Source: an uncultured Methanobrevibacter sp. (GTDB taxonomy: Archaea > Methanobacteriota > Methanobacteria > Methanobacteriales > Methanobacteriaceae). Taken from it: a stretch of DNA of 64,000 bases. Below are positions 34,981 to 46,152 of this stretch, one piece after another. The stretch lies in NCBI RefSeq assembly GCF_902784195.1, contig NZ_CACZTX010000002.1, positions 124,001-188,000 of the forward strand. The letters run 5' to 3'. The notes beneath the pieces were generated by a model. That model saw nothing but the letters and a program-made list of their open reading frames with translations. It was not told the DNA's origin and made no database searches. Each line of letters begins with the position of its first letter. Position 1 is the first letter of the stretch. Both the position numbers and the translations under genes were made by a program.

Positions 34981-36480
34981 ATGAACAACATATATTTATC
35001 AAAATCAAAGTATTGCAGATGTGTGCAATGTCAAAAGATTCTTTGGTTAGAAAAGTACAAACCCGATTGTGCAAAACCTGAGGATAAGACAGTTATTTTT
35101 GAAAACGGTCATAAGGTAGGTGAACTTGCAAAAGGATTGTTCGGAGATTATGAGGACATTCCATTTGACAAGACAATCACTCCAATGATTAAACAGACAG
35201 AGGAGCTAATGCCAAAAAAGCCAAATGTCATTACAGAAGCTTCATTTGATTATGATCACAATTTCTGCAGTGTGGATGTCCTGAAGAATGATGTCGACGG
35301 TGTGGAAATCTATGAGGTTAAGAGCTCTACAAAAGTAAAGGACATCTACTTGGATGATGCTGCATACCAATACTATGTATTGTCCAATCTAGGATACAAT
35401 GTAAAGAAAGTCTGCATTGTATATGTTAACAATGAATATGTTAAAGGAGAACTTCCTGTTGAAGATGAATTGGACCAATACTTCAATATTGAGGATGTGA
35501 CTGATATAGCACTCTCAAAGCAGGATGAGATTCAAAGCAACATTGATGAGATAAACAGATTCATGGAACAGTATGGCGAGGACAACGAACCTCCTACATG
35601 TCTGGAACTGAAATGCTTCAATCCTTATGATTGCGATTTCTGGCAGTACTGTACAAGAGACTTGCCAAAACCTAATGTCTTTGATGTGGCAGGAATGTGG
35701 AAAAGCAAAAAGTTCGAGAAATACAATGAAGGAAAAGTGTCTTTTGAAGATTTATTATATGAGGACTTGAATCCAAAATATATAGAGCAAGTGGATTTTG
35801 AAGTAAATGATAAGGAGCCTAAAATCAATAAGGCAGCTATTGCTAGAACTTTAAACTCCTTGGAATATCCATTGTATTTCATTGATTATGAAACATACAA
35901 CCAACCTATACCTGAAGTGGAAGGAACCAAGCCATATCAGCAATTGCCTTTCCAATACTCTTTGCATATCATTGAAGAGGAAGGAGCTCCAATAGAACAT
36001 AAGGAATTTTTGGCGGAAGTTGATGATGAGGATTTCATAAGGACTTTTGCAGAAAGCATGATAAGCAATCTTCCTGAAGACGGAAGCGTGATTGTATACA
36101 ATAAGTCATTTGAATCAAGCGTAAACAGGAAAATAGCAGAGCTCTATCCTGATTTAGCGGATGAAATGGCTAGGATAAACCATAATATGGTGGATTTCAT
36201 GGTTCCATTTAAAAACAGAGATTATTATATGAAAGAAATGGAAGGGTCCTATTCAATCAAGTATGTATTGCCTGCACTATACCCAGATGATCCTGAATTG
36301 AATTATGATAATTTGCCTTTGGTTCACAATGGTGGAGAAGCTTCTGAAACTTTTGTCGGCTTGAAGAGCAAGTCAAAAGAAGAGCAAGAATCAATAAGGA
36401 ATGCTTTGCTGTTATATTGTGGACTTGACACTTATGCTATGGTAAAATTATGGGAGAAATTTATTGAAGTTATACAATAA
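34981..36480 (+). CDS. DUF2779 protein: Cas4-like nuclease plus DEDD exonuclease
   Basis: 499 residues in two parts. The first resembles Cas4/RecB iron-sulfur nucleases: Cys12, then a PD-(D/E)XK site formed by Asp99, Glu112 and Lys114 (SVDVL...YEVKSS), Gln130, and a Cys cluster near residues 205-222 (CLELKCFNPYDCDFWQYC). The second has the DEDD exonuclease pattern: FIDYET (Asp302, Glu304), VIVYNKSFE near 373 and YCGLDTYAM (Asp483). This matches the DUF2779 architecture, with two predicted DNA-cutting domains in one chain. The gene stands alone in a region of restriction and toxin genes, so a role in defence or DNA processing is likely but unproven. Confidence 0.75.
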   Translation: MNNIYLSKSKYCRCVQCQKILWLEKYKPDCAKPEDKTVIFENGHKVGELAKGLFGDYEDIPFDKTITPMIKQTEELMPKKPNVITEASFDYDHNFCSVDVLKNDVDGVEIYEVKSSTKVKDIYLDDAAYQYYVLSNLGYNVKKVCIVYVNNEYVKGELPVEDELDQYFNIEDVTDIALSKQDEIQSNIDEINRFMEQYGEDNEPPTCLELKCFNPYDCDFWQYCTRDLPKPNVFDVAGMWKSKKFEKYNEGKVSFEDLLYEDLNPKYIEQVDFEVNDKEPKINKAAIARTLNSLEYPLYFIDYETYNQPIPEVEGTKPYQQLPFQYSLHIIEEEGAPIEHKEFLAEVDDEDFIRTFAESMISNLPEDGSVIVYNKSFESSVNRKIAELYPDLADEMARINHNMVDFMVPFKNRDYYMKEMEGSYSIKYVLPALYPDDPELNYDNLPLVHNGGEASETFVGLKSKSKEEQESIRNALLLYCGLDTYAMVKLWEKFIEVIQ

Positions 36481-36779: not shown

Positions 36780-39700
36780 TTAATTTTCTTGATGTAAGTC
36801 TCTTAAATAATTTTCTAATTTAATAGTTTCTTCAAGTAAACCAACAATATTTACTATATGATCAAAATTATCAATATTTAATAATTCTCCCTTATGTTCT
36901 TTAAACCATTTATTTATTACTTTATATCCTCCAATTTGGTAGTTCCATACATCTTCAGGAATTCCTAATATTTGTTTGCGTTTATTAAGGTGGAGAATTC
37001 CTTTTTTATATTTTATAGAGCCTATTTCTAAATCATCAGAATTATTAGGTTCAAGTATCAATTGTGCAGGTATTTTTGAATCCATCAAATGTAGTTTTCG
37101 CAACTTAGAACCTGTTGCTATATATTCCTTAAATAAGTCTTCACTAACGAAAAAGGCCTTATCTTCATTTTCTATGCTTTTATCATTTATTACAGGTACT
37201 CTTGGGAAGTCTTTGCATAAATATTCTTCGTACTGTTCGGAATATGTTGGATCGTGAAGAATGCCATAAACATAATCAAATACTTCTATTGGAGAAGGTT
37301 TTTCTTGAATATATTCTGTTAATTTATTATAAGTTTTTTCATCGATATTAGCGTCCCATGTTTCTACACCTCGTTCATCAGTTGATACTAAATACAATGG
37401 TGCAACATAAGTTATTTCACACTTAGCTGAAAACAAACGGTGAGCAATTATTTTCTTTGAGACAAATGGTGAGAAAGATTGTGTTGATGTTCTGCCAAAT
37501 ACCAATCCTATGTTCTCACCTATTGGAGAAGTAGGTTTAGCTAGTAAATGTCCCATTGTGCTTTTTTCACGAGGCCAAAGAAGCCAACCACAAGAATTTC
37601 CTGTATAATAAGTCCAACGTGAATCGAAAGGTCTATATGAAATTTCTGTTATTTTTCCATTAGAAATCACATCTTCTTTGATTTTCTGTGCGCTCTGTCC
37701 ACGACTAAATTTAGTCCATAAACTTAGAATTTCGTTATCATCTGTGGCATGTTTAACTTTATCCATTCTTTCAATGAGTATATCTCGTGTTGGAGCTAAG
37801 GCGACTTTGTCTTTTCCTGACTGAACTCCTGTAACATTGGTTGGAAACAATTCAGTTATACTAACTCCTGCATCATAATATTCCTTATCATCACTTCCAA
37901 ATGGAACAAAGTATGCCATTTTTTTATCTATTGTCAACTCAGTGAAGTCTAAACCTCCTTTTTCTAAGGTATTTAACTTATAATCTTTTGTACCCCATAA
38001 ATCAGTATAATATACTTTTGCCCAATCGTCTGTATCTGTTTTTTTAACTCCGATGAAAAGGGACACACCCACCATTATGTCAAATATATTTTCATCTTTT
38101 TCACCGTCAGGAGTGGTTTCCTGTTTATTTGCACTTCCATGTAGGTTTACAATCCAAATTTTATCAAATGTTCTTAATAAGCTTCCACGCATTCCTCTAA
38201 ATGTAGGATTTTGTAAATAACCATTATTTGAAACGAAAGCAAGAATTCCACTATCCTCTTTATTTATGATTTGTTCTGCGAAATGGAAGAATTTTACATA
38301 ATCATCATTCAACAAATGTTTCTTTTCGCCGAAATCAGTAATTCCATCAGTTTCTTTTTTGTATGTAGAAATGTCATAAGGGTTTGAAGATGTGGAAAGC
38401 CATGGGGGATTCCCTATAACAACTTTTATAGGGCGGCGTGCCTTCCAAGTATCTGCATGATATGCTTCATCAGTTATTGCTGCTGAAAAATCGAACAAAG
38501 TCAGTTGTTCTCCTCTTTCAGTATTTGACATAGGTGGAGCAAGAGAATTAGTCAGAAAAATATTTATAGGTAACTGAGCATAAGGAGCATGACCTAATGT
38601 TGATTTCACCATACGGCGCAACTTAAGGTGTGCGACAACATAGCTAGTCATCATAATCTCAAAACCAATAACACGAGACAATAATCCGTTTTTGTCTTGA
38701 ATGTACTCTTCATAAAATGCTTCTCTTCCATCAGAAAAGTATTTGTCCTTAATTACTTTAATTATCTCTGCTCCAAATGAACCTGTTCCACATGCAGGGT
38801 CAAGGATAGCTATGCGAGGCACTATAATCTCCTCTTCTGTCACCCATTTTCCTTTTTTAATTTCTTTTGGTTTGCATGGAACGATTGTTGATATTTGTTC
38901 ATTATTTGAGAGACCTTTATCAACATTTAGTTCATTCACCAGAATTTCATCCACCATATTTACCAGATAGTGCACTGTTTGAACAGGAGTGTAGAAAACA
39001 CCTAAATCTTTCCTTAATTTAGGGTCATAATATGTAAGAAACTCTTCATAAAAATGAACGATAGGGTCATTGTGGTCATCTTCTGCAAGTAAAAGTGATA
39101 TATCACATATTTTATATAGTTCACATAACTTATCTACAACATTATCAAGAGTTGGATGTGTTTTTCCTGTAGTAATGTGTGTAAAGAATTGTTTCAACAA
39201 TTCAGACTCTTCTTGCAAATTGCCGAGAGCTTCATATTTATTAAATGTGTCCAATGTTTTATCATTGTATCTTGCAATGAAAAGTCCGTATACTATAGTC
39301 TGAGCGTACATGTCTGAAAATTTTTTTGTTTTCATTGAAGGATCTAATTCAGTCTTGATTTTATTGTAAAGCCCATATAATTCCAGAAACATTGGAAGTT
39401 TCTTCTGTGTATCATTAAGTAAAGGCATTCCTTTTTCATCTTCTTTTAGTATTCCTTTAACGATACTACGAATAGACTGCCCATGAATAGCCATATATTC
39501 AGCAAGTTTAGTGGATGATTTGATTTGTGTTGGGTCCTTAAGCAGAAAATCCTTTAATAAACTTATAAATAAATCAACATTTTCTTTATTAAGACTTAAT
39601 TCTCCATTTTTTAACTCCAAAAGTTGTATTTCAGCATACATTTCAGTATTGCCATCACACCAGAATTTCCACTCCAAATTGTCAGTTAATATGGCATTGC

Positions 39701-40007
39701 CGAAGCTATTTACTTCAATTATTATTTGTGATTTTGCGCGTTCGTCAATACCGCCAATCTTCTTAACTTCTATTCCGCCAAATGGTTCTATTTCAGTTAC
39801 TTCGCTTTCATTATGCCACAATTTAATATCAATGTTTTCTCCTCTTTTACCTATTCTTTGACCTGATAAATCTCTAGCGGCACAGCCAAATTCAGTAATC
39901 ATTTTGATGATTGGAGGATTATAAGAAGATTCAACATTTCCAAGTTCATATGCTTCGCGAACTTCATTGTAGTATTCTTTAATAATTGCTGAATATTTTT
40001 TGTCCAT
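36780..40007 (-). CDS. Type IIG/ISP-like restriction-modification enzyme
   Basis: 1075-residue single-chain enzyme. Near residue 75 a PD-(D/E)XK-like site (GGIEVKKIGG) suggests the endonuclease. The N6-adenine methyltransferase core follows: motif I DPACGTGSFGAEI at about residue 400 and motif IV NPPW at about 534. The C-terminus (VWNYQIGGYKVINKWFKEHKG, about residue 1025 on) matches the specificity domain of type ISP enzymes, but I see no helicase motifs, so it is closer to type IIG. It would methylate and cut the same recognised sequence. The ATG at 40007 is preceded by GGTG. No separate methylase or specificity gene adjoins it; a decayed integrase lies next door, consistent with transfer. 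Confidence 0.85.
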   Translation of the reverse strand: MDKKYSAIIKEYYNEVREAYELGNVESSYNPPIIKMITEFGCAARDLSGQRIGKRGENIDIKLWHNESEVTEIEPFGGIEVKKIGGIDERAKSQIIIEVNSFGNAILTDNLEWKFWCDGNTEMYAEIQLLELKNGELSLNKENVDLFISLLKDFLLKDPTQIKSSTKLAEYMAIHGQSIRSIVKGILKEDEKGMPLLNDTQKKLPMFLELYGLYNKIKTELDPSMKTKKFSDMYAQTIVYGLFIARYNDKTLDTFNKYEALGNLQEESELLKQFFTHITTGKTHPTLDNVVDKLCELYKICDISLLLAEDDHNDPIVHFYEEFLTYYDPKLRKDLGVFYTPVQTVHYLVNMVDEILVNELNVDKGLSNNEQISTIVPCKPKEIKKGKWVTEEEIIVPRIAILDPACGTGSFGAEIIKVIKDKYFSDGREAFYEEYIQDKNGLLSRVIGFEIMMTSYVVAHLKLRRMVKSTLGHAPYAQLPINIFLTNSLAPPMSNTERGEQLTLFDFSAAITDEAYHADTWKARRPIKVVIGNPPWLSTSSNPYDISTYKKETDGITDFGEKKHLLNDDYVKFFHFAEQIINKEDSGILAFVSNNGYLQNPTFRGMRGSLLRTFDKIWIVNLHGSANKQETTPDGEKDENIFDIMVGVSLFIGVKKTDTDDWAKVYYTDLWGTKDYKLNTLEKGGLDFTELTIDKKMAYFVPFGSDDKEYYDAGVSITELFPTNVTGVQSGKDKVALAPTRDILIERMDKVKHATDDNEILSLWTKFSRGQSAQKIKEDVISNGKITEISYRPFDSRWTYYTGNSCGWLLWPREKSTMGHLLAKPTSPIGENIGLVFGRTSTQSFSPFVSKKIIAHRLFSAKCEITYVAPLYLVSTDERGVETWDANIDEKTYNKLTEYIQEKPSPIEVFDYVYGILHDPTYSEQYEEYLCKDFPRVPVINDKSIENEDKAFFVSEDLFKEYIATGSKLRKLHLMDSKIPAQLILEPNNSDDLEIGSIKYKKGILHLNKRKQILGIPEDVWNYQIGGYKVINKWFKEHKGELLNIDNFDHIVNIVGLLEETIKLENYLRDLHQEN

Positions 40008-40226
40008 ATTTACACCCGTCATATATGCTTTTTTTTGATATGGTTTTACTTAATTTAACATTATATTTTTCTTATATATAATAACTTTGTAGAATAACTT
40101 TATTTATATCATATATTAAAGAAAATAATATTTTTTCATAAAATGCATCTGTTTATTTTTTCTAATTGTAGTGACTTATTTTTTTATATATTTTAAGTGA
40201 TTATATGTATAAAATGATGAATTAAT

Positions 40227-40719
40227 GCTAGAAAATTTTATTAAAACAAGGGAGTTATCTTTAAGAACAAAACATGGATATAAAAATTCTCTAATAAATA
40301 TACTTTTTTCAAAAAGATTCTTTTACCAACTTATTAAAAGAAGCAGATCATAAGAGGAAACTGGGATTCGATGAAAAATAGCAAATTAAAAATCATATGA
40401 TAAATTATTTAAAATTAATTTAGACTATTTAAATAGCTATTTTGGAAAAATAAATAAATCATCTGGGTTTAGAAAGGCAAAAACTTATAATGGATTTAGA
40501 AGTCATATGTTAAGAAAATTCTATGGCTCTACATTATATGATGCTGAAAATGAATTAAGTTTAGATGAAATTAATACTTTACAAGATAGAAAGAAAGATA
40601 ATACACATTCTTCTTATTTTATGGAAAATCTTAAAATTCATACAATTTTTGAATATTACTTTTCAATTGCTCTTACAAATATTTTATTTTATATAAATAT
40701 CATATTAATGTTTAGGTGA
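40227..40719 (+). pseudogene. Decayed tyrosine integrase
   Basis: Remnants of a phage/plasmid-type integrase in changing frames. From 40229, ENFIKTRELSLRTKHGYKNS resembles the N-terminal core-binding helix and stops near 40343. Further on, DYLNSYFGKINKSSG and FRSHMLRKFYGSTLY (about 40420-40545) carry the catalytic His/Arg region, and SSYFM (about 40611-40625) the nucleophile Tyr. The central catalytic part is mostly deleted. It marks an old integration event at this place, next to the restriction gene on one side and the nuclease pair on the other. Confidence 0.7.
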
Positions 40720-41660
40720 TAATTATTTATCAAGAATTCATCAAAAATCAATCAAAAAATAAATTTATGAAAGTAATTAATTCAGATGATAAAACTTTAA
40801 GTACAAATATCAATATTTTATTGGCTTTTTTAAATGAAAATTTTATTACTAAAACTATTATTGACGAATTAAGGTTAAATCCTAATTATAACCCTGAATG
40901 GAATTTCACTCAATTAGGTGGTATGCATGGGTCTGTTGATCTTAATTTACCTAATGATGAAGAAGGTTATGCTGCATTGTCATTATCTATTCTAGAGAAA
41001 TATGTGAATGATACAAGGTCTTTAATTAATTTATTTTATAGATTTGTTAGAAAACAGCCTATTAGATATTTTAATAATATTTTTACTAAAAAATTGATGG
41101 AATATATAGATATGAGAATAGATGAAGGAAATATTATTCTTTATATTTTAAACAAATACAAAGTTTATTGTGAGTGGTTCAATAAAGAAGAATTAATGCA
41201 AGAATATATGAATAACACTATTAGAGGAGAGGATTTATTAACTAGGGATTTGAGAAAATATTTATTTAATCAAGGTATTGATTTTCCATTTTCAGAGCCA
41301 AGCACTCCCTCAGGGAAACCGGATTTAATTTATGGTATTGATACTCAAGATCCATTGGCATTAGAAGTTAAATTATTTGGAGGTCAAAACAATTATAACA
41401 AAGATTATATTAAGAAAGGCTTTAAACAAGCATATCACTATGCAAAAGATTATAACAAAGAATATGGTTATTTGTTGATTTTTAATTTAGGAGAAAATAT
41501 TTTATCATTTAATTTAAACAATAAAGACGACTTTCTATCGGTTCAATATGGTAATAAGATTATTTTTTTAATAGTGGTTAATCTGAATATTAATAAATCT
41601 GCAAGCCAGAATAAAAATTTAGAAAATGTTATTATTGATGAAAATTATTTAGTTTCATAG
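40716..41660 (+). CDS. PD-(D/E)XK-like putative nuclease
   Basis: Up to 314 residues. The N-terminal 190 are helical, without recognised motif. The C-terminal third has a restriction-endonuclease-like core: SGKPDLIYGIDTQDPLALEVKLFGG, with Asp203, Glu217 and Lys219 as likely metal and catalytic residues, followed by a helix rich in aromatic and Lys residues. I cannot name the family. The frame opens with GTG overlapping the integrase remnant; ATG at 40767 is an alternative. The next gene begins 11 bases after its stop behind a strong AGGAGG, so the two are a unit. A defence role fits the neighbourhood but is inference. Confidence 0.6.
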   Translation: MIIIYQEFIKNQSKNKFMKVINSDDKTLSTNINILLAFLNENFITKTIIDELRLNPNYNPEWNFTQLGGMHGSVDLNLPNDEEGYAALSLSILEKYVNDTRSLINLFYRFVRKQPIRYFNNIFTKKLMEYIDMRIDEGNIILYILNKYKVYCEWFNKEELMQEYMNNTIRGEDLLTRDLRKYLFNQGIDFPFSEPSTPSGKPDLIYGIDTQDPLALEVKLFGGQNNYNKDYIKKGFKQAYHYAKDYNKEYGYLLIFNLGENILSFNLNNKDDFLSVQYGNKIIFLIVVNLNINKSASQNKNLENVIIDENYLVS

Positions 41661-41671
41661 GAGGATTTTTA

Positions 41672-41977
41672 ATGAAAATTGATTTTAAGGGATTAAATGA
41701 ATTATCAAAAAGAGCAAAAAAACTTGATGGAGAGAATATTGTTTCTATAGATGAATTATTTTCAAAAGAGTTTTTAGAAAAATATTCTGCTTTCTCCAGT
41801 TTTGATGAAATGATTGATATGTCTGGTTTTAAATTAGAAAATGAAGAGGATTTTTCTAAACTTTCTGAAAATGAAGATTGGGAATTTTTTATTATAAAAA
41901 ATACCTCATTTAATTCATTTGAAGAAATGGAAAATGAAGCTGCTAAAGAATATGTTTTTAATCAACTTTTCAAATAA
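41672..41977 (+). CDS. Small acidic protein paired with the putative nuclease
   Basis: 101-residue protein rich in Glu, Asp and Phe: FKGLNELSKRAKKLDGENIV, SIDELFSKEFLEKYSAFSSF and FFIIKNTSFNSFEEMENEA. The pattern DELF...F..KY..F.SFDE resembles small proteins common on mobile elements, whose function is unknown to me. The ATG follows GGAGG. As the second gene of a two-gene unit, it could be an inhibitor or partner of the nuclease-like protein. Confidence 0.6.
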   Translation: MKIDFKGLNELSKRAKKLDGENIVSIDELFSKEFLEKYSAFSSFDEMIDMSGFKLENEEDFSKLSENEDWEFFIIKNTSFNSFEEMENEAAKEYVFNQLFK

Positions 41978-42031
41978 TTCTTTTTTAGAATTTTAAAAAC
42001 ATTTAAAAACTTAATACTATAACAAACTGTT

Positions 42032-42754
42032 CTATCCAAAATCTCCATCACACATCTCTTTATAAAAGCAATATTTACATAAAAATCCTTTTTCTTTCTT
42101 GAAATAATTCTTATCAATAGTCTCATACAAATTATCAACTATCGTCTCCACATAATCAAAGTCACCATCACCAATATCCTCTTTTGACTGTGACTTGAAG
42201 TAATCTCCACTATGAGAACCAAAATTAGCTATTCTATATGCGGCAGAACTTGTAAAGTAAATTCCTGCAGAGACAACATTAAGATCAAGATACTTGGATT
42301 CCAATAATATCTTATAAACACACAATTCCAATTTATATTTGTCAATATTCCTTGGCTTTCCGGTCTTATAATCAAAGATTATAAGTTCATCCCTACTATT
42401 CTTTATGACTATATCAACGATTCCATTCATATTGCTCTCATCATCAACAATGTACTCCTCAACGCTAAAGATCTCATAGCCATTTGAATATATGTCCTTG
42501 AAGAATTTCTCCAATCCACGTATATGGTCTTCCAGTTTTTCATCATATTCAAGGTTTAAGAACACATCATCAATCTCGTTTCCTTCCATTAATTCAATAG
42601 CTATTTCTTCAGCTATTTCATGAACTTCTGTTCCAAGGAGCATGTATTTATTTGCCTCTTCAGTTATCTCATCAATGTATCTGTATTTGAATTTACGAGG
42701 ACATTCAATGAATGTATTGATTTTGGATTTGGATAAAGTCAATTTATTTGCCAT
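42032..42754 (-). CDS. Stand-alone Cas4/RecB-like iron-sulfur nuclease
   Basis: 240-residue PD-(D/E)XK nuclease of the RecB/Cas4 type. SKINTFIECPRKFKYRY supplies the first Cys, GTEVHEIAEEIA the His, NGIVDIVIKN the Asp, LIIFDYKTGKPR the Asp-x-Lys active site and the Tyr/Gln helix KLELCVYKIL follows. The C-terminal LCKYCFYKEMC completes a four-Cys iron-sulfur site. There is no cas gene or CRISPR array in the window, so this is a solitary Cas4-like exonuclease. The ATG has GGGTGTG upstream. Confidence 0.85.
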   Translation of the reverse strand: MANKLTLSKSKINTFIECPRKFKYRYIDEITEEANKYMLLGTEVHEIAEEIAIELMEGNEIDDVFLNLEYDEKLEDHIRGLEKFFKDIYSNGYEIFSVEEYIVDDESNMNGIVDIVIKNSRDELIIFDYKTGKPRNIDKYKLELCVYKILLESKYLDLNVVSAGIYFTSSAAYRIANFGSHSGDYFKSQSKEDIGDGDFDYVETIVDNLYETIDKNYFKKEKGFLCKYCFYKEMCDGDFG

Positions 42755-43165: not shown

Positions 43166-44023
43166 ATGAAGAGAATAGATAAGCCTGATGATAAATTTAG
43201 AAAAATAAGCCATAGTCAGCTTGGAAAGACAGTGCATAAATACTTTGGGCTTCCAGGCAAATTCATCGGAACCCTATTGAATGAAATACCAGATGGGGAA
43301 AATAAGGAAAAGAGAACTGATGGTGGATACAAGGTGGAATTGGATGGTGATGAAATGATAATTCTCATAGAGGATGAGAGTTCTGGAGTGAATAAGGAAG
43401 AATTATTGAAAATCTTCGGATACTCTGTAACAATGAGATATCTTTCTTCTTTGCCTGTCTTTTCTGTAATCACCACAACCGTTCCATTAGAGGGATGCGA
43501 TCAGTATGTTTTCTCATCACCAACAAACAAGTTCTTGCCAATCATTATATCCTTCAATGAATTTGATGGCAATCAAAGATTGGAAAAAGCCAGAATTAAG
43601 GTAAGGAATAATGAATGGTGGAATGATGTTGAAGGGTATGACTTGGTGAACATTCCAAAGATGTTTGATGATGGAAACGACATGATTCTGGAAGAGGTTT
43701 GTGTATTGTTTTCTAAAATGAGAATGGAGAATAAATATATTAAATATGCATTGGGCAGATGTTTGAGATGTATGATCAGTAAGTACGCAATCACATTGGA
43801 TGATGTGGCTCGATTGGAAGGAGTGATAGATATGTTTAAGTTGAAAGGAGATGCAGATGCTTATCTTGAAGAGATTCGTGAAGAAGGTAGAGTTGAAGGT
43901 AGAGTGGAAGGTAGAGTGGAAGAGAGAGTGGATTTGGCTAGAAAAATTGCTGAAAGATTAGGTATGGCTGAAGCTGTTGAAATCAGTGGATTAAGTGAAG
44001 ATCAAATTCTAAACAGTCCGTAA
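43166..44023 (+). CDS. Rpn-family (PD-(D/E)XK transposase-like) protein
   Basis: 285-residue relative of the Rpn/TIGR01784 group, DNA nucleases once called transposases or invertases. The nuclease core is at residues about 50-110: YKVELDGDEMIILIEDESS, then a helix and FSVITTTVP. The C-terminal region has 12-bp tandem repeats coding EGRV (four units), then a helix EERVDLARKIAERLGMAEAV and a short helical motif SGLSEDQIL. The repeats are prone to slippage. The 3' third is duplicated just downstream. Rpn proteins may promote recombination; a defence role has been suggested for relatives. Confidence 0.75.
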   Translation: MKRIDKPDDKFRKISHSQLGKTVHKYFGLPGKFIGTLLNEIPDGENKEKRTDGGYKVELDGDEMIILIEDESSGVNKEELLKIFGYSVTMRYLSSLPVFSVITTTVPLEGCDQYVFSSPTNKFLPIIISFNEFDGNQRLEKARIKVRNNEWWNDVEGYDLVNIPKMFDDGNDMILEEVCVLFSKMRMENKYIKYALGRCLRCMISKYAITLDDVARLEGVIDMFKLKGDADAYLEEIREEGRVEGRVEGRVEERVDLARKIAERLGMAEAVEISGLSEDQILNSP

Positions 44024-44057
44024 TCTTAATATGGATTGGAGGATATGGTTTTCCAAT

Positions 44058-44299
44058 ATGTTTGAGATGTATGATCAGTAAGTACGCAATCACATTGGAT
44101 GATGTGGCTCGATTGGAAGGAGTGATAGATATGTTTAAGTTGAAAGGAGATGCGGATGCTTATCTTGAAGAGATTCGTGAAGAAGGTAGAGTGGAAGGTA
44201 GAGTGGATTTGGCTAGAAAAATTGCTGAAAGATTAGGCATGGCTGAAGCTGTTGAAATCAGTGGATTAAGTGAAGATCAAATTCTAAACAGCCCTTAAT
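44058..44299 (+). pseudogene. Duplicated 3' end of the Rpn-like gene
   Basis: Nearly identical copy of 43759-44022, about 299 bases downstream, lacking two 12-bp EGRV units. A 78-codon frame remains open from 44062, coding LRCMISKYAITLDDVARLEG onward. It lacks the nuclease core. It is either a recombination leftover or an internal duplication that supplies alternative C-termini. Confidence 0.8.
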
Positions 44300-44358
44300 C
44301 AAAAACATTTATTAACTCCCATTACAATACTACTATTAAAGTAAAGGGAGGAATTAAT

Positions 44359-45234: not shown

Positions 45235-46152
45235 TTGGACATTGTCAATGATGTGATTGCAGAAAACTTTCCAGAGCTGATTATGGACTTTTATCCAAAG
45301 GCATTTTGGAACACTTTTCCCCAAGAGATTCTTAATGCATGTCCTGATGATTTAATGAAAAACGATTTGTTCAGATTCAATTTCAAGCAGAAACTGGAAA
45401 CTGAATTTTTCACAAAAGATGGAAAAAGATTTATTCCGGACTGTCCCTTTGACACTTTCGAGGATTTGGTCATTGGCCTTGAGTTCCAGTCATCAAGATT
45501 GGATTATAAAAGAAAAACAGTGTTTTACGAATATCAGGCCAATTTACATTTTAAGCATAAGAAAGATGTACGAATGGTTGTTTTTAGCACGGTTCACAAT
45601 AATCACAAACTTTTCAGACATAGGGTAGGTCCTTGTGAAGAGTTTACTATGCTTATAATATCGTTAAAGGCTTTAAATCAAAAACAAACTTTAAATAATA
45701 GTTTATATAAAATAAGAAACAAGTTTAGGTTGTCAGATAAGGAAAAGGCTTTGTTTTTAGCAAGTCCGATGATGGATTCAAAGAATAAGGCTGAAGCTAT
45801 AAATGTGCTTTTGAATAATTTTTACGGAATAAATGATATCTCTCATGAGGAATATGAGGATATGATCAAGATTGTATTGATTTATGCCAATAAATGGTGT
45901 TATAAGGAAGTTGAAAATAGTTATGGAGGTTCTGATATGGTTGTTTTGACTCCTGGCGCTCAAAAGCTTTATGAAAGATTAGTGAATGAAGGTATTGAGC
46001 AGGGTATTGAGCAGGGTATTGAGCAGGGTATTGAGCAAGGTATTGATATCATTGCTGTTAATATGATTAAGGAAGGTTTTTCATTGGAAGACACTTCTAG
46101 AGCCACAGGTTTGCCTAAAGCCAAGATTGCCCAGTTATGCAAATCTAAATAA
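45235..46152 (+). CDS. Rpn-like protein, start codon unclear
   Basis: 305 residues from TTG 45235, but similar-looking coding sequence extends upstream (AVFHIYDCIFKNIFDTYPQG from about 45172) to a stop at 45151 with no ATG, GTG or TTG in frame, although GGAGGTG stands at 45160. The nuclease core is FIPDCPFDTFEDLVIGLEFQ followed by SSRLDYKRKTVFYEYQANLH. The C-terminal tail has four 12-bp tandem repeats coding GIEQ (45991-46038) and ends with a helix-turn-helix-like DTSRATGLPKAKIAQL. It may be a gene that has lost its start. Function as for Rpn-family proteins. Confidence 0.6.
   Translation: MDIVNDVIAENFPELIMDFYPKAFWNTFPQEILNACPDDLMKNDLFRFNFKQKLETEFFTKDGKRFIPDCPFDTFEDLVIGLEFQSSRLDYKRKTVFYEYQANLHFKHKKDVRMVVFSTVHNNHKLFRHRVGPCEEFTMLIISLKALNQKQTLNNSLYKIRNKFRLSDKEKALFLASPMMDSKNKAEAINVLLNNFYGINDISHEEYEDMIKIVLIYANKWCYKEVENSYGGSDMVVLTPGAQKLYERLVNEGIEQGIEQGIEQGIEQGIDIIAVNMIKEGFSLEDTSRATGLPKAKIAQLCKSK

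Follow-up and report, generated by a model that had tools for sequence, protein, structure and literature searches.

A stretch of 64,000 nucleotides from an uncultured Methanobrevibacter species (referred to as the window) carries two closely spaced genes behind the remains of an integrase, and the question is what these genes encode and whether they belong together. The initial annotation described them as a PD-(D/E)XK-like protein with a small acidic partner and suggested a nuclease with its inhibitor. The explanation that accounts best for the data, and that is on balance probable, assigns the 314-aa protein to a PDC-M14-like anti-phage system as its effector subunit, with a RecB/Cas4-type nuclease end, and regards the small protein as independent cargo. 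The features of the locus are listed in table 1.

Table 1. Features of the locus (window positions)
Feature	Position	Strand	Details
Inserted 5.55-kb segment	36481..42031		Flanked by two convergent backbone genes (DUF2779, Cas4-like); backbone aligns to both edges in comparison with genome G015 (L094)
Type IIG restriction-modification enzyme, in insert	36780..40022	-	PADLOC REase_MTase_IIG, E 4e-174
Tyrosine integrase remnant	40210..40716	+	C-terminal part, with stops and frameshifts; match to L051 integrase
99.5% identical block	40214..42055		Window genome versus M. olleyae SIG14 genome, 10 differences
314-aa protein, nuclease gene	40716..41660	+	314 codons from GTG start to stop (open reading frame list); N-terminal helical PDC-M14B-like domain ~6-141, C-terminal RecB/Cas4-motif PD-(D/E)XK domain ~165-310 (family alignments)
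Catalytic motif codons G200-x-x-D203, E217-x-K219, Q238-x-x-x-Y242	41313..41442	+	Invariant or D/E-only in 14/14 members
11-base gap	41661..41671	+	Shine–Dalgarno AGGAGG, overlapping the nuclease stop codon (sequence)
101-aa acidic protein, phrog_2211 family	41672..41977	+	101 codons from ATG start (open reading frame list); all-helical; 14-residue internal repeat 34-47 / 73-86
Cas4-like PD-(D/E)XK protein, backbone gene outside insert	42032..42754	-	Pfam PDDEXK_1, E 1e-21

The physical description of the unit in the initial annotation was borne out by the open reading frame list: the gap between the genes is 11 bases, the second gene encodes an acidic protein of 101 residues, and its strong ribosome site is an AGGAGG motif about seven bases upstream of the ATG. 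The GTG start of the nuclease gene is backed by the N-terminal family alignment, and no Shine–Dalgarno sequence was found upstream of it. No methanogen-type BRE/TATA match with at most one mismatch is present upstream of the nuclease gene. Over the whole window, the methanogen BRE/TATA-like pattern AAANNTTTATATA occurs at 39 sites at up to one mismatch, compared with 16.7 expected. Scans for sigma-70 promoters and terminators gave chance-level results, such scans being unsuited to an archaeon.

Comparison with related genomes placed both genes in a 5.55-kb insert that also contains a type IIG restriction-modification gene and the integrase remnant. The boundary between the DUF2779 gene (34981-36480) and the orphan Cas4-like gene is the insertion site of this segment, and the relative G015 shows the empty site, where only about 25 bases separate this convergent pair. 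Because these neighbors of the G015 chromosome lie 5.55 kb apart in the window, the Cas4-like gene is old backbone and no partner of the nuclease; 8 out of 19 Methanobrevibacter genomes have it at E ≤ 1e-60. The unit does lie between a restriction-modification gene and a Cas4-like gene, as was first noted, but the latter is outside the insert.

The initial annotation was also right about the integrase remnant directly before the unit: 76 residues match an intact archaeal integrase (L051) at 47% identity (E 1e-18), the identity to the L048 integrase is 43%, and the remnant is a decayed tyrosine integrase. The same nuclease block is carried by M. olleyae isolate SIG14 (L026). Since the block is 99.5% identical between the two genomes and the sequences on both sides are only about 93-94% identical, the integrase remnant, the nuclease gene, and the small gene have spread together recently as one block. 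A search for att-like direct repeats around the block returned just AT-rich repeats without clear meaning. Elsewhere in the window, the 3' end of a 285-aa gene (43166-44023) is duplicated directly downstream (43759-44025 and 44058-44300) with a variable EGRVEGRV repeat, which the EQGIEQGI repeat of the gene at 45235-46152 resembles.

The 314-aa protein belongs to an unnamed, mostly bacterial family with members in the Bacillota, Bacteroidota, Pseudomonadota, and Actinomycetota. It was identified at 19 genome loci, among them loci of Neobacillus and Chitinophaga at 38-40% identity, and a tblastn search found plasmid proteins of Streptomyces, Kitasatospora, and Polaromonas. The family is rare. 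In genome samples that each included the respective query genome, the full-length nuclease was present in 2 out of 152 Methanobacteriota, and the nuclease was present in 1 out of 349 genomes of the Achromobacter order, 1 out of 399 genomes of the Neobacillus order (plus the locus L104 described below), and 2 out of 395 genomes of the Chitinophaga class. A pattern search of viral contigs and phage records revealed no related loci with the nuclease.

An alignment of 14 members displayed invariant residues that include E172, G200, D203, K219, Q238, Y242, and D245, whereas position 217 holds D in some members and E in the others. The Asp203, Glu217, and Lys219 residues on which the initial annotation based its nuclease reading are therefore in place and conserved. 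The motifs GxxD, [DE]xK, and QxxxY in this order are the established signature of RecB/Cas4-type PD-(D/E)XK nucleases, and members of the PD-(D/E)XK superfamily are known to be in part too divergent for profile searches to detect. Searches of the 314-aa protein against Pfam, PADLOC, PHROGs, and NCBIfam gave nothing above noise, the family as a whole has no significant Pfam or PDB match, and an hhalign comparison with a shallow Cas4-like set found no match. Sub-significant Pfam families among the members included RAI1-like PD-(D/E)XK (2 of 13 members, E 0.12) and XisH. AlphaFold2 modeled the nuclease too poorly to show the fold (pLDDT 65.8, pTM 0.49), and among PDB structures the model came closest to the PD-(D/E)XK enzyme PspGI, at E 0.32. 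Several copies adjoin defence genes: L027 has QatA, QatB, and QatC, L044 has type I restriction, and an AbiJ-like gene lies beside L104. With motifs conserved across four bacterial phyla and neighbors of the defence type, the nuclease reading is supported and, as far as sequence can tell, highly probable; the fold and profile searches gave no confirmation of a nuclease fold.

In 16 out of 19 intact bacterial loci the nuclease gene is immediately preceded by a zinc-ribbon gene. At 15 loci this is a small open reading frame with two CxxC pairs that ends at or overlaps the nuclease start, L106 is the sixteenth, and four cysteines are invariant among the aligned zinc-ribbon proteins. Four broken Streptomyces copies were left out of the 19, and no zinc-ribbon gene is visible in the intact loci L015, L016, and L032. 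The zinc-ribbon gene may not be essential, as L015 and L016 lack it.

In Streptomyces (L029, L037, and L040) the zinc-ribbon and nuclease genes come after genes for TniB and for a TniQ protein that carries helicase-associated repeats. The nuclease copies L040-L043 are frameshifted or truncated, and the site is a likely transposon cargo site. The arrangement, most explicit in L029 where TniB (E 8e-12) and TniQ-HA genes are directly 5' of the zinc-ribbon and nuclease genes, could suggest that the family is a component of transposition. However, no Tni genes adjoin the nuclease in the Bacillota, Bacteroidota, Pseudomonadota, or the archaeon, and cargo beside TniQ is ordinary for such transposons, which makes a transposition function very improbable.

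The zinc-ribbon pairing connects the family to a candidate defence system. The locus L104, found by the nuclease profile with a match that covers positions 6-141 only (E 2.4e-14), consists of a 144-aa zinc-ribbon gene immediately 5' of a gene for a 271-aa protein that has the N-terminal domain of the nuclease family and a different tail. It is a full PDC-M14 locus (PDC-M14A, E 8e-51; PDC-M14B, E 3e-101). Six nuclease-type members match PDC-M14B through the N-terminal domain (E 1.2e-5 to 1e-3), and the zinc-ribbon protein of L106 matches PDC-M14A (E 0.0011). The PDC-M14B profile has no match in the window protein itself, so that the link runs through its relatives, and no nuclease-type member matches PDC-M14B over its full length: the similarity is limited to the N-terminal domain and the C-terminal half differs. 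Because the N-terminal domain matches PDC-M14B and a zinc-ribbon gene lies upstream in the same way as PDC-M14A precedes PDC-M14B, the 314-aa family can be classified from sequence comparison as a nuclease-tailed variant of PDC-M14, and the first gene of the unit is very likely the nuclease effector of a PDC-M14-like defence system. The PDC systems, listed in PADLOC as phage defence candidates, originate from guilt-by-embedding and were described as unvalidated (PMC12988326, PMC11811056); a literature search on PDC-M14 returned no paper.

A screening of the window genome and of genome G016 with PDC-M14A and the zinc-ribbon alignment found only zinc ribbons inside unrelated genes, one of them a release factor at about 22.7 kb in the window. 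The archaeal nuclease copy thus appears to have lost its zinc-ribbon gene. This loss, the dead integrase, the GTG start without a Shine–Dalgarno sequence, and the missing BRE/TATA match in a window otherwise rich in such sites would agree with a decaying passenger that arrived without its partner and without a good promoter or start signal and is non-functional in the archaeon. Such decay is nevertheless doubtful, since two genomes have both reading frames undamaged, no residue of the catalytic motifs has been lost, and leaderless expression is possible. As a nuclease-tailed PDC-M14 variant and as an archaeal orphan, such an effector would be new.

The small protein matches phrog_2211 over residues 6-100 of its 101 amino acids (E 5e-17), covering the C-terminal part of the profile. 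No fused protein of the kind suggested by the 395-position phrog_2211 profile was seen among the loci. Relatives were identified in 26 phage records, 23 plasmid records, and 25 viral contigs (the contigs by a degenerate DNA pattern) as well as in about 14 out of 150 genomes of the order to which the window organism belongs, and the hosts of the family are Bacillota, Pseudomonadota, Spirochaetota, Bacteroidota, haloarchaea, and methanogens. In temperate phages (Javan231, IME-SA4, phiOH2, and Javan371) the gene is typically alone, facing the early operon near the antirepressor, and forms a transcription unit of its own with opposite-strand genes on its flanks. Plasmid copies adjoin N6 DNA methylases in L019 and, in L018, a TIR gene accompanied by a toxin-antitoxin pair, and in other methanogens (L048 and L051) the small gene lies beside intact integrases related to the remnant in the window. 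The small protein is independent cargo carried by phages and integrase cassettes, and it probably serves the mobile element as an accessory for protection or maintenance.

Two further contexts were observed for the small family. Four Methanobacteriales (L052-L055, in genomes G063, G023, G128, and G100) contain a shorter chromosomal form of about 79 aa beside the same 405-408 aa methyltransferase-like gene, as if the gene had been domesticated. In the viral contigs L084, L067, and L065 the small gene is found near a conserved 193-aa gene whose product starts with MNILTQYGKE or alike, and in L084 it also adjoins an opposite-strand P-loop NTPase gene; these sites are possible phage accessory-gene hotspots.

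The AlphaFold2 model of the small protein is confident and all-helical (pLDDT 83.5, pTM 0.72). Segment 34-47 is repeated as 73-86, the top-scoring of about 2,700 segment pairs tested, and a helical repeat fold is confidently predicted. A PDB fold search with the model found no counterpart; a single viral protein is predicted to adopt this same fold (TM 0.89). A relationship to AcrIIC5 (profile match E 0.5) was rejected, since AcrIIC5 did not turn up in the PDB fold search at E ≤ 10. The acidity emphasized in the initial annotation is real for the window protein (net charge -11, pI 4.4) but is not a family trait, with relatives in Javan231 and IME-SA4 at pI 7.9. DNA mimicry by acidity was rejected as a family feature, as some members are neutral or basic.

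The distribution of the two families bears on the question of whether the genes belong together. The nuclease and the small gene occur together only in the window genome and in the one close relative with the same block. The small family is absent genome-wide from the tested bacterial genomes that contain the nuclease (0/15) and from all nuclease loci except those of Methanobrevibacter; conversely, more than 70 records from phages, plasmids, and chromosomes contain it but not the nuclease. The two genes are thus associated locally and do not form a conserved module, the conserved partner of the nuclease being the zinc-ribbon protein. The lack of the pair outside this block is an outcome that the initial annotation had named as refuting its reading, and the inhibitor role that it proposed was not supported: the small gene is a phage and plasmid gene that adjoins the nuclease gene by chance here. 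A toxin-inhibitor pair, in which the nuclease is bound and held inactive by the 101-aa protein until an infection takes this inhibitor away, would fit the acidity of this member, the short gap and strong Shine–Dalgarno sequence that imply co-expression, and the joint travel of both genes in one near-identical block. It is unlikely, however, because the nuclease exists without the small family in all 15 bacterial genomes, so that the small protein cannot be an obligatory antitoxin, the phage copies of the small gene usually stand alone between opposite-strand genes, and acidity is not conserved.

A related possibility is that in the archaea the phage-derived small protein took over the sensor or regulator role of the lost zinc-ribbon protein. 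The zinc-ribbon gene is missing from both archaeal genomes, the small gene is tightly coupled downstream of the nuclease gene, and the block spread as a unit. On the other hand, the association is confined to one lineage at 99.5% identity and has no evolutionary depth, the two proteins show no sequence likeness, and the gene order is opposite (zinc-ribbon gene upstream, small gene downstream), so that a replacement of this kind seems improbable. The same low probability applies to a general scheme of modular defence: effectors would be exchangeable (a PD-(D/E)XK nuclease here, another tail in PDC-M14B) and driven by a zinc-ribbon sensor together with a helical adaptor domain common to all, and in an archaeal lineage the phage-derived small protein would have replaced the sensor as the new regulator.

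Under the preferred reading, a nuclease effector with unrelated cargo, the bacterial nuclease would act with the small zinc-ribbon protein encoded just upstream. The zinc-ribbon protein and the common N-terminal helical domain might recognize the invader or its nucleic acid, and recognition would release the C-terminal nuclease to cut DNA. In Methanobrevibacter the nuclease would have come in an integrase cassette without the zinc-ribbon gene, and it may act alone, recruit another sensor, or have lost control.

These results give an uncharacterized nuclease family a context, namely a zinc-ribbon partner and a domain that also occurs in a candidate defence system, the effector end of which appears swappable. 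PDC-M14 can thereby be tested as a system of sensor, adaptor, and effector, and the bacterial form with the nuclease is its readable version. The small family is widespread, wholly unannotated, and common to phages and plasmids of bacteria and archaea; with a predicted fold not seen in the PDB, it is a promising candidate for an accessory protein that may act in counter-defence.

Among known systems, RecB/Cas4-type PD-(D/E)XK nucleases have the same three conserved motifs in the same order, but no sequence or profile similarity to them was detected and the 314-aa protein has an extra N-terminal helical domain. The Qat system adjoins the nuclease in L027, but its genes are separate (gap of about 310 bases) and no components are in common. 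Type II toxin-antitoxin systems likewise consist of two adjacent, tightly spaced genes, whereas here the nuclease gene precedes the small gene, which the nuclease family as a whole can do without. The small protein shares homology with phrog_2211, a phage family of unknown function, and differs from the phage members, mostly lone genes, by its position in an operon with a nuclease. The closest system is PDC-M14, which also has two adjacent genes, zinc-ribbon first and effector second, with a homologous effector N-terminal domain; the nuclease family differs in a PD-(D/E)XK C-terminal half in place of the PDC-M14B tail, in a shorter zinc-ribbon protein (~75 aa compared with 144-152), and, in the archaeal copy, in having a nuclease without any zinc-ribbon gene.
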